64,000 bases of DNA from the NCBI RefSeq assembly GCF_007860125.1, contig NZ_SJPW01000001.1, forward strand, positions 892,104 through 956,103, given 5' to 3'. The notes beneath the pieces are model-generated. The model searched no databases, was not told the origin of the DNA, and saw only the letters and a program-made list of their open reading frames with translations. The first letter of the stretch is position 1; the number at the start of each line of letters is the position of its first letter. Positions 55,668 through 60,711 of the stretch are shown here, piece after piece. The position numbers were made by a program, and so were the translations under genes. Origin of the DNA: Rubripirellula tenax (lineage in GTDB: Bacteria; Planctomycetota; Planctomycetia; Pirellulales; Pirellulaceae).

Positions 55668-57323
55668 TCATTCTGTGGCAGATTCGCTGATTTGCGGATC
55701 CAAATCGATCACCAACGTACGCTCCACCGGAACCTCGTCGGGCGTTGTCTTCAGCGACAGTGCGATTTGGTACTGACCGGCCGTCAAGGTGCTTTGCGGC
55801 ACGAAGGCCAATTCACGCGTTTCGCCCGGACGTAACCAGCGACCGAAGCCGTCGGCCAGGTCCATCGTCCGTCCCGAACCGTCGGCGACCTGCAAATCGG
55901 CGTGCACCGGCACGAAACCGGTTCCGTTGTTGGTCACGATCAAACCGAACGACGTGAAGCCGTTCTTTTCCACCTTCGCCAACTCGCCGACGGTGACGTC
56001 GGTCTTCGGAGCGTCGCCGAACGACATCGCCAACGGAATCGACTGGACCGATTCCCCGCTTTCGTCGTCTTTCACTCGCAGCCGAATGTCACCGTACTTC
56101 GTCTTTTCCGCGTCGCTGGACGACGACACGGCGATCCGAATCGTCTTGGTGCGTCCCGGGCGTACATCAAAGTTGTCCGACGATAGGGTAACGTCGTTGA
56201 TCACGTTGCCATCCAGATCAACCAGCTCTGCGACGACGTTCTTCGGTCGTACCGAGTTATTGGTGAAACGCAGATTGCCCGAACGGCTTGCGCCAGCAAT
56301 GTCGCCGACTTCGATTTGTGCGGGTTGAACCGACAACTCATGATCTAAGTAGGCTTGTCGGACTTCCAGCGCTGGATAGTCGCCTTGACCGACATTGACG
56401 TTGAACTCTTGATTGACCAAGCCACGTCTGCCGTTGGTGACTTCCAGTCGTAGCGTTTGATCGCCCGGAAACAACAGTTCATCCACCGGCGCCGAAACTT
56501 GCACGCGGCTTTGGGGCATGACGCGAACCAGATACCGTTCTTCGCCCTGCAAGTTGACTCGCGATGGCAGCATCATTTGAAAGGGTTTTGGACGCGACGT
56601 CGTCGCCGACTCGATCGTGCCGCGGACGTTGCACTCGAATGCGAAATCCGTCGGATTGACCAGGAACGTTTGAGCAACCGGCATCCCCAGGTTGTTTCGG
56701 ACGCTGCCATGTTCGAACTGCAAACGATTCATCTGGCTGACGTCCTTGACGCCCGTTTCGATATCAATGCGCAGTACGTACTGTGTCACAAAGCGAACGC
56801 CGGCGGAGATTCGAGTCGGATCATTCGGGTCGGCCTTTTTCTCGGCGACGTACCCGTTGTCACGCACCAGGACGCCAAAGGAAAGGTAGTTCGACAACGC
56901 CAACGGGACCGTGACCTCGCCTTCCAAATATGTCGATTCACCCGGCGCCAGCTCGAATTCCGTTGGCGTCGTGAATCGAAGTTCGTCGGGCGCGGCCGCC
57001 AGATCATCATGCAGAATGATCCCCGTCACTTCTTGCCGCAATTGGACCGGCATGACCGTTACATTCATCGCCTTGCCCGTCGACTTGATTTCAAAGCGAA
57101 ACGGAATCGTGGTACCACGACGCGCTTCGAAACGGTGTACGATCGGTTCGATGTGGAACGATGGTTCCACCGACTGGGTCAGCGTGACACGTCTTTCGCC
57201 GCCGCCAAGGTCTTCGACATCTGTCTTAGATTCAGCGAGCGAAACGTTTTGGGTGGCAATCAATCCGAGGGCCATCGATAGGCCGAAACGAAATCGAAGA
57301 CCCGTGCATCGTGGGGCGAGCAT
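55668..57323 (-). CDS. Secreted Ig-like (chaperone-like) protein of the secretin operon
   Basis: A 551-residue exported protein from an ATG at 57323 (signal MLAPRCTGLRFRFGLSMALGLIATQ). It is nearly all beta strands in four or five Ig-like domains. Residues 40-160 show FRFEIKSTGKAMNVTVMPVQLRQ and LAPGESTYLEGEVTVPLALSNY; residues about 215-290 resemble a pilus-chaperone half (MLPSRVNLQGEERYLVRVMP). Later domains read as VLVRDN-type and NEW3-like strands (FTNNSVRPKNVVAELVDLDG, VTNNGTGFVPVHADL). The role inferred is a periplasmic chaperone or shaft protein for the two small pilin-like proteins; a plain NEW3/CARDB adhesive protein is the alternative. It is the last gene of the operon, before a terminator. 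Confidence 0.68.
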   Translation of the reverse strand: MLAPRCTGLRFRFGLSMALGLIATQNVSLAESKTDVEDLGGGERRVTLTQSVEPSFHIEPIVHRFEARRGTTIPFRFEIKSTGKAMNVTVMPVQLRQEVTGIILHDDLAAAPDELRFTTPTEFELAPGESTYLEGEVTVPLALSNYLSFGVLVRDNGYVAEKKADPNDPTRISAGVRFVTQYVLRIDIETGVKDVSQMNRLQFEHGSVRNNLGMPVAQTFLVNPTDFAFECNVRGTIESATTSRPKPFQMMLPSRVNLQGEERYLVRVMPQSRVQVSAPVDELLFPGDQTLRLEVTNGRRGLVNQEFNVNVGQGDYPALEVRQAYLDHELSVQPAQIEVGDIAGASRSGNLRFTNNSVRPKNVVAELVDLDGNVINDVTLSSDNFDVRPGRTKTIRIAVSSSSDAEKTKYGDIRLRVKDDESGESVQSIPLAMSFGDAPKTDVTVGELAKVEKNGFTSFGLIVTNNGTGFVPVHADLQVADGSGRTMDLADGFGRWLRPGETRELAFVPQSTLTAGQYQIALSLKTTPDEVPVERTLVIDLDPQISESATE

Positions 57324-57391
57324 GGCGTTTGCGATGGGTGGTGGGTGAGCGGGCGATAACCTGCCGAGCCAACCAGTTCGCACTTCGCGCT

Positions 57392-59068
57392 TCAGTGCGC
57401 GAGTTCGAAACCGCGCGGAGCAGGTTTCACAATTCGAGGTGAAATGAAGATCACAACTTCCGCGTCGCGCGTTTGTTGTTGTGTCGTCTCGAAAAGATAG
57501 CCCAGTAGGGGAATCTTGCTCAGTCCGGGTATTCGATTCACTCTATCAATCGTCTCTCGCTGCACCAAACCGCCGATCACAATGGTTTTTCCGTCTTTAA
57601 CGTGAACGGTGGTTGATACCGACCGTCGGTTGATGATCGGGAACGGATTCAGTGCCAATTCCGTATTCGCGTTGCGAACGTCTTCACTGACTTCTGCTTT
57701 TTGGATGTCGATGGTGACAATGTCGCCGCGGATGCGGGGGGTAATGTCCAGACTGATCCCCGATTCAACGGTTTGGATTTCTTGCTGAAAGAAAAACGAA
57801 CTGTTGTCGGCGTTGTTGCTCGAGTTGGGCTGGACACTGAAGAATGTTTCGCGGTTGATCGCGATCGTCGCTTGCTTGTTGTCCTGCGCCATGACGTGGG
57901 GTGACGCGCGAATGGTCAAGTATCCGTGTTCATTCAGAAGCTTGACGAACGTGCTTGTCTTTGCGAAGTCATCAAAGATGGCATTGGCGCCCGCGCGACT
58001 GTAGCTGGAACTGAGTGCCAGTCCTGTGGCGCCAAGCTTCAATGCGTTCTCGCCGTTGAGTTCAACAGCGTGCTGCCAATCGAGACCGAACTGGAATCCA
58101 CTATCAGGTGCGACAACGCAAATGATCGCCTCCAGAACCACTTGCGGAATCGGTTGGTCGACCGTTTCGAAACGCTCGACGATTTGCTTCGCCAACCTTC
58201 CCGGTGCCTCGACCACGATCAAGTTCGATCCCGCGATCTCCTGGACAAACGGAGCCAAGCCCTTAGGAACGGTATCGATCAACGACTTTGTTTCCAGGTG
58301 CTGCGGTCGATACTCGATCCGCTCGGAAATGTACGAAAATAGCGGTGATTCCGGGTCCGCTGGGCCCACAAAGTGCTGTTTGCCATGCTGGGCATAGTAC
58401 AACCCCAAAGGCATCAGGACCTTTTCGATTGCTCGATCAAGGGGCAAGTTGTCCAACCGCGTATTGACGACACCACGGACCTTTTCGTCCATCACCAAGT
58501 CAATGCCCGCGTCTGCAGAGATCGTTAACAGTACCTCGCGAACATCGGTTTCGATAAACTCGTCGTCGATGACGTACGGTTCCTCGGCGTCGAGGTAGCC
58601 CTGTACTTGTCGAACAACGCGAAATGGCTTTGTTTCGTCATCGCCAAAATAGGTTGTGTAGTCGTCTTCGCCCATCCGCTCTTTACGCACGGGGGCTTGG
58701 ACGCGACGGGCTTTCGCGTCGACCAAATCTGCTTGTTCCACATCACGTGATCCGATCACATGTGACCCGATGACTTGATCGTCGATGATCCGTTCCTCGA
58801 TTAAGCGATCATCAATGATCTGTTCGTCGATGATCGATTCACCCGGCGCCAAGTCATGATGGTCAAGCGCGGATCCGTGGCCCATTTCATCGCGGGCTTT
58901 GACATCGAAGTCGGGCATCGAATGATCAAGCGAATCTTGTACCAATTCGCCGATCGTTGGCCGCGGTGGCAAGGGTCTCGCGGCACAGCCCAAGGTCACG
59001 CACACGCAAAACGCGACCGTACCGATTGCCGCATGGGCGATCGAACAATTTCGTTTTCGGCGGGGCAT
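57392..59068 (-). CDS. Secretin-family outer-membrane lipoprotein
   Basis: A 558-residue secretin. The leader ends in a lipobox (VTLGCAA) with the acylated Cys at residue 28. Residues 78-107 are a degenerate IIDDR/IIEER-type acidic repeat. A STN/N0-type domain (VLLTISADAGIDLVMDEKVRGVVNTRL) and an N1-like part follow. The C-terminal secretin core holds VVLEAIICVVAPDSGFQFG, the FFFQQEIQTVESGISLDITPRIRGDIVTIDI stretch, the VHVKDGKTIVIGGLVQRETIDRVNRIPGLSKIPLLGYLF signature and the terminal DAEVVIFISPRIV. The start ATG 59068 is used, with TTG 59083 an alternative. No inner-membrane ATPase or platform genes are adjacent. Confidence 0.88.
   Translation of the reverse strand: MPRRKRNCSIAHAAIGTVAFCVCVTLGCAARPLPPRPTIGELVQDSLDHSMPDFDVKARDEMGHGSALDHHDLAPGESIIDEQIIDDRLIEERIIDDQVIGSHVIGSRDVEQADLVDAKARRVQAPVRKERMGEDDYTTYFGDDETKPFRVVRQVQGYLDAEEPYVIDDEFIETDVREVLLTISADAGIDLVMDEKVRGVVNTRLDNLPLDRAIEKVLMPLGLYYAQHGKQHFVGPADPESPLFSYISERIEYRPQHLETKSLIDTVPKGLAPFVQEIAGSNLIVVEAPGRLAKQIVERFETVDQPIPQVVLEAIICVVAPDSGFQFGLDWQHAVELNGENALKLGATGLALSSSYSRAGANAIFDDFAKTSTFVKLLNEHGYLTIRASPHVMAQDNKQATIAINRETFFSVQPNSSNNADNSSFFFQQEIQTVESGISLDITPRIRGDIVTIDIQKAEVSEDVRNANTELALNPFPIINRRSVSTTVHVKDGKTIVIGGLVQRETIDRVNRIPGLSKIPLLGYLFETTQQQTRDAEVVIFISPRIVKPAPRGFELAH
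58748..58837 (-). repeat. Short acidic coding repeat in the secretin
   Basis: A run of related units (IIDEQ, IIDDR, LIEER, IIDDQ, VIGSH, VIGSR) encoded by degenerate 15-base units such as atcgatgaacagatc. It lies between the lipid anchor and the first folded domain and probably forms a flexible or calcium-binding spacer. Confidence 0.65.
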
Positions 59069-59095
59069 CCTTGCGTGAACCAATGAAGTCCTTTG

Positions 59096-59572
59096 TTAGT
59101 TTCCTGTAATCGTTAAGACGACCGTCGCACAGTGTTTGCCCTCGACCACTTGTGCCCCATCGATCCCAACTGTCAGATCCACTTTTACTTCGCCGTTGCC
59201 TGCGATGCCCATCGCAACTGACGCTTCATCTTTCCGATTCGAAATATTTGTTCGCGCCACCGCGTGGCGTGGCGAAACCTGGACCACACCCAATGACCCG
59301 GTCACCGTTGCGGAGATCGAAGCATCGTTTTGAATTTCAGGTAGCTCGGTATGGTGGAACGCCGACGTCGTCCATTGCAGAACGATGGCCCGTTGGTTGA
59401 CGCGGACGCGGCAATCGGCGCCGCCGATCAGTCCGCTCGAGACGCCACCGGATCGCGTCGTCATATCCACCCGCACACCCGACCCGCCCAAACGAGAAAT
59501 ATCGCCGATGCCGACTTGCGAAGTCAGCATGGCGATGGCGATGGCGGCGAGTTGTCTTGTCCAGCGGACCAT
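59096..59572 (-). CDS. Small secreted beta-rich protein B of the secretin operon
   Basis: A 158-residue protein from an ATG at 59572. A signal peptide (RQLAAIAIAMLTSQVGIGD) precedes a beta-rich body (VRVNQRAIVLQWTTSAFHH, ISATVTGSLGVVQVSPRHAVARTNIS, EVKVDLTVGIDGAQVVEG) and ends in KHCATVVLTITGN. It shares its closing pattern (a hydrophobic final strand and Asn) with protein A of the same operon and with spore-coat-U/DUF4402-type pilins, but this is a similarity of pattern. Its stop is 27 bases before the secretin start codon at 59068. A minor pilin or tip role is inferred. Confidence 0.68.
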   Translation of the reverse strand: MVRWTRQLAAIAIAMLTSQVGIGDISRLGGSGVRVDMTTRSGGVSSGLIGGADCRVRVNQRAIVLQWTTSAFHHTELPEIQNDASISATVTGSLGVVQVSPRHAVARTNISNRKDEASVAMGIAGNGEVKVDLTVGIDGAQVVEGKHCATVVLTITGN

Positions 59573-59603
59573 GGGGTTCCGAATTTCGTTGTTCTACGCG
59601 ATA

Positions 59604-59635
59604 AATCGCCGAGCCTCTTTCGAAGCCCGGCGATT
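59604..59635 (-). promoter_or_regulatory. Hairpin between the two small secreted protein genes
   Basis: Imperfect stem AATCGCCG(A)GC with GC(C)CGGCGATT around a ten-base loop. No T-run follows on the minus strand, so it is not a strong terminator. Its place between protein A and the rest of the operon fits a partial terminator or mRNA-protecting hairpin, as in many pilin operons. Confidence 0.5.
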
Positions 59636-59662
59636 CATCGTTTTTCGACTGTGAGATCGAAG

Positions 59663-60181
59663 TTAGTTCGCTGTTACGGTGCCCGTAACCGTTGTTTCAT
59701 AGTCGCCGGCGGGGAACGATCCGAAGCCGTCGGTGATGAAGCTGACTTCCAAGTCCATGTTGGCCCGGCCGAAGCCGTTGGACGAACACTGAACCGTTGC
59801 GACGCCGTCATTAGAGGCGTAGTCGGTCGTGTCGGTTGCTTGGCTGACGGTCCAAGCGGCTGAACCGACGGACGAATTGATTGCCAAAGCCAGTTTGGCG
59901 TTACGACGTGCGGTGTTGTCGAGGGTGTGACGGAACGCTTGTGTTGTCGAGAATGACGCGGTCACGCCAGCCAACGAGTTGCCTTTGACGACCCACTGTT
60001 GCAGTGGGAAAATTTGATCCAGTTCGGATTCGTCGTGGGTGATTGCTGCTGCAGCAGGAGCCACGATCGAGATCGCACCGGGGACGGTGACGGTGAATTT
60101 TTGAGTTGCAGTCGTTTGACCGATTGCACTGCCAGCGGTCGAAGCGAGCAACAAAGCGAAGAAAGCGGTTTTCATATTCAT
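59663..60181 (-). CDS. Small secreted DUF4402/spore-coat-U-like protein A (pilin-like)
   Basis: A 172-residue protein starting at ATG 60181 (MNMKTAFFALLLASTAGSAIG), preceded by an AGGA-type ribosome site. The frame opens further upstream with TTG at 60253. After the signal come TATQKFTVTVPGAISIVAP, a typical DUF4402 opening, then NSLAGVTASFSTTQAFRH, and the closing FPAGDYETTVTGTVTAN, which matches the C-terminal beta strand of spore-coat-U and DUF4402 proteins. These are small exported beta-sandwich proteins found in pilus-like fibres. It is the first gene of the operon and probably its most expressed product. Assignment by pattern, not by database search. Confidence 0.72.
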   Translation of the reverse strand: MNMKTAFFALLLASTAGSAIGQTTATQKFTVTVPGAISIVAPAAAAITHDESELDQIFPLQQWVVKGNSLAGVTASFSTTQAFRHTLDNTARRNAKLALAINSSVGSAAWTVSQATDTTDYASNDGVATVQCSSNGFGRANMDLEVSFITDGFGSFPAGDYETTVTGTVTAN

Positions 60182-60711
60182 GGGTGTGTTCCTGTGTGGC
60201 GACCAAGTGTTGGGCTTGATCATCGATTGAGAGGGAGAAGAGTTTGGATACAAGTTTTGTTTTCAAACGTTTCGGACCCCGATGGCCTGGAGCGGCATCG
60301 ACGGACCTTCCTTCAGTCCCCTACGATTTCTCTGCATTGCTTGCGGAGAGCCGTAGTGGACTCTAGGAACTCGGTAGCACTCAGGTCAACCGAATCCGAA
60401 ACGAATTTGAGCTTTGTTCATTCGCACCTTTCGTTTCCCCGCCGTGTGAAACTCGTTGACGCGTTGTCAGCAAGTCGTGTTTCAGGTGGTCGTTTGTCGT
60501 GGTGTTGCTTGAACGCTTGAAACTTATGTCGGTGTTTCACGCCGGCAAGGAAAACGAAACGGAAGTCTTGGTAAGCCCGACAAGGACTGCAATTTCGCGG
60601 GTTCGACCTGACAGACGGTGATTCGGAGTGTCGGGACGTTTTGCTGCAGTCTTGTCAGGATCGGCGAAAACCCTGACAGGGAGATCGGCGAATCGTTCCC
60701 CGGACCGCTTG
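60182..60711. other. Long upstream region of the secretin operon
   Basis: About 530 bases between the regulator gene and protein A. It holds three CCTGACA-type sequences within 75 bases: 60607-60613 and 60672-60678 forward, and 60653-60659 reverse (TGTCAGG), the last two forming a 7-bp inverted repeat 12 bases apart. No ORF of quality or RNA gene is seen. It is long enough to hold a leader and operators. Confidence 0.55.

Follow-up and report, generated by a model that had tools for sequence, protein, structure and literature searches.

A conserved operon of a lipoprotein secretin, an Ig-like protein and small secreted proteins in Rubripirellula tenax, with a possible role in export and assembly

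A secretin is usually thought of as working with an ATPase and a platform in the inner membrane, and a PapD-like chaperone as the partner of an usher. What, then, could be the role of a secretin that shares an operon with a chaperone-like protein and two pilin-like candidates? This question is raised by a locus of the planctomycete Rubripirellula tenax, located in a stretch of 64,000 nucleotides (contig NZ_SJPW01000001.1, positions 892,104 to 956,103), hereafter called the window. Four genes, here named A, B, C and D, encode two small secreted proteins (A and B), a secretin lipoprotein (C) and a large Ig-like protein (D). The module is real and conserved. Our favoured reading, to which we give a probability of roughly 0.45, is that the module serves export and assembly: D would chaperone or hold A-family subunits and C would be their pore. 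A conserved module of secretin, chaperone-like and pilin-like proteins would break the usual pairing of secretins with motors and of chaperones with ushers.

Within the Pirellulaceae, D was found in at least 24 of 149 genomes, belonging to 11 of 68 genera. The best 9 candidates per family genome were scored for D and the best 23 for A, so that these are minimum counts. In all 24 D-bearing genomes, C immediately precedes D on the same strand, with a gap of -185 to 195 bp (median 39, n=24, starts taken from the longest frame); the contig ends within C in G115 and within D in G126. An A-family gene is present in the same stretch as the C-D pair in 21 of the 24 loci. The three genomes concerned by its absence there (G115, G137 and G126) hold an A gene elsewhere. 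Over the 149 genomes, the A profile matched all 24 D-bearing genomes and one other, G053, where 57 residues inside a 4659-aa frame gave an E-value of 8.9e-4; this match is regarded as due to chance. At E 0.01, no A was detected in four genomes of the same genus and one of another genus where D was not found, a silence that is informative only for equally close relatives as the profile was built from D-bearing genomes. Because D-bearing genomes without a linked A hold one elsewhere and the relatives in which D was not found gave none, A is tied to D and C even when unlinked. The C-D linkage together with the co-occurrence of A, C and D rejects chance clustering.

The C protein is a member of the Secretin family PF00263 (143.6 bits versus a cut-off of 27.5), and its matches to the Pfam STN and N0 families are both below cut-off. 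It also stays under the NCBIfam cut-offs of the curated secretin classes, GspD being the best (160 versus 351 bits), followed by PilQ (147 versus 284), MshL (141 versus 250) and SctC (111 versus 238). A strict lipobox pattern is present in 18 of 23 aligned C proteins and a cysteine at the same column in four more, so that this column is kept in 22 of 23, the exception being L042, whose start is downstream of it. The window genome has further secretins in loci resembling type IV pilus, type II and Tad clusters, labels that we take from the neighbouring genes and partly presume. A phylogenetic tree was made from 17 family secretins (the remaining seven of the 24, being near-copies or truncated, were omitted), one from G506 (another family of the same class), nine distant ones and an outside set of eight, namely six other secretins of the window genome, whose weaker matches were not included, and E. 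coli GspD and HofQ. This outside set is small and has long branches. The 27 D-linked secretins fall on one side of a branch with support 98/96, and within them two secretins located beside type II genes branch first (91/79). Since these 27 group together, D-linked secretins appear as a separate clade, and by this phylogeny the secretin goes with D and not with type II systems generally. Three further proteins of the window genome, in loci L060, L061 and L064, are a 519-aa solo secretin and two giant secretin-domain proteins of 1226 and 1142 aa.

D itself has only weak Ig-type Pfam matches. In the predicted structure, its C-terminal half superposes best on WxLIP, and PapD-type chaperones also match. 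A WxLIP/chaperone fold is thus predicted for this half, and the label "chaperone-like" given to the protein in the initial annotation is apt as a prediction. At the sequence level, the PF06030 cut-off is passed by two distant D homologues, and PapD was matched by one of 24 D members (E 0.0095). The D profile gave no match up to E 1 among Protein Data Bank (PDB) sequences, nor did one distant D alone; a profile of 12 distant D proteins gave weak matches (best E 0.021), and WxLIP is absent from the 16 obtained. Because there is no such match, the link between D and WxLIP rests on the Pfam matches of its homologues and on the predicted fold. By Foldseek E-value, ciliary Ig proteins of eukaryotes come before WxLIP (1e-10 versus 4.6e-8), but at a TM-score of about 0.17, which we read as a general Ig resemblance. 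The two halves of D match each other weakly (16.7%) and match a single-unit homologue at 78.5% and 95.9%, and D is likely a tandem double unit. From reading of the sequence by eye, D has no C-terminal transmembrane helix and ends in a hydrophilic tail instead.

The small proteins belong together. A matches the B gene of a relative (E 1e-5, 31% over 90 aa), and tblastn searches with B find the A genes of L053 and L054; judged from these similarities, B is a diverged paralogue of A. A beta fold is predicted for A (pLDDT 79), and the nearest folds include chaperone-usher pilins with weak similarity. The models were built from 7 sequences for A and 3 for D and are weaker for that reason. Neither A nor B has a Pfam or NCBIfam family above cut-off. 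The relationship to DUF4402 or spore-coat-U proteins initially assumed for them was abandoned, no such Pfam match being obtained up to E 0.1 in 28 A-family members, nor for A and B themselves with the threshold raised to E 1. The WxL Pfam family was not matched up to E 0.1 by these 28 proteins or by 10 distant A-like proteins, and a prepilin pattern is found in none of the 28. Against PDB sequences, the A profile had no match up to E 1, and the best match of a profile of seven distant A-like proteins was an avidin (E 0.018). A third A paralogue of the window genome (L072:10796-11377, contig 12) has no C or D nearby. A GspE gene and a frame that we take to be GspF-like lie at a distance of about 5.6 kb from it, and its contig has no secretin match. 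Since solo A copies in G142 and G103 lack a nearby T2SSE match, the GspE neighbourhood of the third paralogue is considered incidental.

The initial annotation had pointed out a secretin without an usher, an ATPase, a platform or a prepilin peptidase, and these absences held for what was searched. A FimD/PapC-type usher was found in none of 17 module-bearing genomes, and the E. coli positive control was detected. Tblastn searches for GspE, GspF and prepilin peptidase found nothing in the window, nor in the sequence surrounding the 24 family loci, which extended at most about 10 kb on the upstream and 4 kb on the downstream side and was shorter where a contig ended. Nor do the T2SSE counts point to a dedicated ATPase located elsewhere in the genome, as they do not follow the module in 12 genomes: 9–16 matches in seven module-bearing genomes versus 9–15 in five without it.

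The module is not restricted to the family. A search with the D profile over 392 genomes across the phylum detected it in at least four, namely the window genome, G506 from the same class, G158 and G503; the best three candidates per genome were scored, and this count more than any other is a lower bound. Among the genomes of the class of G158, D was found in 8 of 75, and among those of the class of G503 in 2 of 9. Nine C-D pairs were obtained outside the class of the window genome (L075, L076, L095, L097–L100, L104 and L105). All nine have the order D then C, whereas G506 has C then D as in the family. Family D and distant D are related in profile-profile comparison (97.3–99.7%; 0.1% for a control with C). 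Small secreted A-like proteins were seen by eye near seven of the nine pairs, and their link to family A is less strong: among 16 candidates, which were scored as a small set, the best value was 1.4e-8 and six reached 0.002 or better; family A itself had no match genome-wide in three distant genomes. Some distant loci differ in composition. L101 and L102 each combine a D-like gene of about 300 aa with a roughly 950-aa protein and A-like genes, of which L101 has several, and no secretin was found in the 14 kb examined; in L101, a GspF is located about 6 kb from the D-like and A-like cluster. The short contig L103 has two D-like and three A-like genes. Beside the G503 secretin, L075:4576-5820 encodes a FecR domain preceded, in the same protein, by a pseudopilin-type N-terminus. 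A pairing of STN domains with FecR is known from TonB-type signalling.

In the export and assembly reading, A, B and further A paralogues would be carried across the inner membrane by the Sec pathway. Once in the periplasm, they would be held by D, with its WxLIP/PapD-type and probably tandem build, and would exit via C, a lipid-anchored secretin in the place of an usher. Outside, A-family subunits would build a structure on the surface, most probably a thin fibre or a layer joined by strand exchange, and the power could come from folding energy or from a shared type II or type IV pilus platform. Binding of A by D, export of A by C and the fibre nature of the product are inferences. In its boldest form, this would be an undescribed chaperone-secretin pathway in diderms, with a WxLIP/PapD-type chaperone delivering to a dedicated lipoprotein secretin as assembly pore, and with neither usher nor dedicated inner-membrane motor, which we consider rather doubtful. 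Two observations weigh against these proposals. Ig domains of glycoside hydrolases tie with chaperones in the structure comparison of D, and for this reason our estimate is 0.45 rather than 0.5. The other, which speaks against a motor-free system, comes from G503 and G552, where the module is followed by a pseudopilin gene, two GspE genes and a GspF gene. By motif, we presume that the G503 locus also encodes an alanine-zipper lipoprotein and the G552 locus five more pseudopilin-like frames and a GspK-like protein. C may thus serve a type II-like machine, at least in this lineage. The initial annotation had named type II platform genes next to the same operon in close relatives as evidence against its reading; such genes do occur beside it in G503 and G552, but these two are distant relatives from another class, and none was found in the flanks of the 24 family loci.

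Alternatively, C could be an accessory secretin of the cell's type II or type IV pilus machinery, with ATPase, platform and pseudopilus supplied from another locus and A, B and D as dedicated substrates. This explanation, which partly overlaps with the export and assembly module, appears somewhat unlikely. In its favour, the module of G552 and G503 is followed by type II genes, C is the only secretin match on these two contigs, C keeps an N0/STN-like stretch, and the window genome contains 15 T2SSE matches and, at another site, a type II-like cluster. However, G552 and G503 hold six and three secretin matches in all, and GspE or GspF stand beside only these two of the nine distant C-D loci, both from one family; none was found in the flanks examined of the other seven, some of them short, or at the 24 family loci. 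The overlapping T2SSE counts and the presence of a secretin in each of the type II, type IV pilus and Tad-like loci of the window genome (again partly presumed labels) also argue against it. Another explanation likens the module to the WxL clusters of Gram-positive bacteria, of which it would be the diderm counterpart: A and B would be wall- or surface-bound adhesion proteins held by D at the cell surface, and C would only let them out, with no fibre made. The WxLIP-like fold predicted for D and the Pfam matches of its homologues are consistent with this, as is the commonest WxL cluster, made of one WxLIP and two WxL proteins (98 of 179; PMC10599100). A secreted protein next to D or A in eight loci, with weak Nidogen or PEP-CTERM matches in two of the four scanned, also speaks for it. 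The absence of WxL family matches among the 28 A-family members and the build of D, longer than WxLIP and lacking its C-terminal transmembrane helix, make this option unlikely. No WxL chain figures among the best 50 matches listed for A, which says nothing of a different fold. That D and A are scaffold proteins of a biofilm matrix, with C exporting matrix material or merely co-regulated, seems very improbable: RbmA ranks under WxLIP and the best chaperones for D, its two-domain alignments have an rmsd above 15, and the strict A-C-D linkage suggests a direct joint function.

The locus layout is given in Table 1. The operon proper spans 55668-60181, and the region up to the regulator extends to 60711. 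The four co-directed genes with signal peptides or lipobox and short gaps, the terminator and the upstream NarL-type regulator had all been recognised initially, and coordinates and sequence reading agree with this. Sec-type signal peptides are seen by eye on A, B and D, and the lipobox VTLGC on C. Depending on the start codons, the gaps are 90 bp between A and B, 12 or 27 bp between B and C, and 8 or 68 bp between C and D. The stem of the D terminator is the longest among 9 sites, versus 7.8 expected from shuffling. A single promoter-like site was found in the region upstream of A (60389-60360), no more than expected by chance. A homologue of the regulator is located upstream of A in 5 of 20 family genomes (tblastn).

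Table 1. Features of the secretin operon and its surroundings (positions within the window unless a locus is named)
Feature	Position	Strand	Description
A	60181-59663	minus	ORF, 172 aa; first operon gene; small secreted protein, predicted all-beta, pilin-like candidate
B	59572-59096	minus	158 aa; second small secreted protein; diverged paralogue of A by sequence similarity
C	59068-57392 (alternative TTG start 59083)	minus	Lipoprotein secretin: variable linker, N0 (STN-like), N1-like stretch, secretin domain
D	57383 (GTG, 571 aa) or 57323 (ATG, 551 aa) to 55668	minus	Secreted Ig-like protein, WxLIP/PapD-like, probably tandem
Intrinsic terminator	55639-55604	minus	3' of D; 16-pair stem and T tail
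NarL/LuxR-type response regulator	61431-60712	minus	Pfam Response_reg and GerE; possible regulator of A
Intergenic region 5' of A	60182-60711	minus	530 bp; promoter probably here
Secreted neighbour family, examples	L043:3019-3930, L050:3880-4842, L115:5657-6643		

Seven C-D loci encode a member of the secreted neighbour family next to D on the opposite strand, and another member accompanies the unlinked A of G126. One of the four members scanned has a Nidogen match just below cut-off (24.6 versus 25 bits) and a PEP-CTERM match just above it (20.9 versus 20.7 bits); of the other three, one has a PEP-CTERM match below cut-off and two have none. In G115, the unlinked A is preceded by a GerE-type regulator (L117:4502-5356), related to the regulators upstream of A in close relatives. 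Since the secreted neighbour in G126 and the regulator in G115 accompany an unlinked A, they point to A as a regulated, surface-exposed product.

The operon is a candidate for the surface appendages of Planctomycetes. Pili-like fibres have been observed on planctomycete crateriform structures (PMC5394234). A general crater component is argued against by the patchy distribution of the module in the family. The genes may reflect an unrecognised way of building surface structures in some Planctomycetes, and the predicted fold of D would place WxLIP-type proteins in a diderm phylum. If a chaperone-secretin pathway does exist, a single fold would link the WxL systems of Gram-positive bacteria with the chaperone-usher systems of Gram-negative ones. 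It would then have to be asked whether subunits can be assembled or released by a secretin with folding as the only driving force. Among the titles and abstract openings listed by searches of open-licence literature on WxL proteins, secretins, ushers and planctomycete pili, none describes such a module.

Compared with known systems, the module resembles several of them in part. It differs from chaperone-usher pili (PapD/FimC, FimD, Dr/Afa subunits) in that no usher was found and the pore is a secretin, and in the weak fold similarity of A and the near absence of sequence matches between D and PapD. With type II secretion and type IV pili it shares a secretin with N0- and N1-like parts and, in the two distant relatives, the neighbouring type II genes. 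In contrast to these systems, no ATPase, platform or peptidase was found nearby in the family, A has no prepilin motif and C is under the curated class cut-offs. RcpA and CpaC have a short secretin architecture. C shares this architecture, and RcpA is among the PDB sequence matches of its profile, but searches with type II queries gave no ATPase or platform match at the module locus, and the locus of the window genome that we take to be Tad-like has its own secretin. Unlike the WxL/WxLIP clusters of Firmicutes (PF06030, PF11797), the operon has a secretin, A and B have no WxL family match, and D is longer, probably a double unit, and without the C-terminal membrane helix. As in these clusters, small secreted proteins of predicted beta fold are encoded together with an Ig-like partner, and WxLIP is the closest superposition for the C-terminal half of D, with two of its distant homologues passing the PF06030 cut-off.
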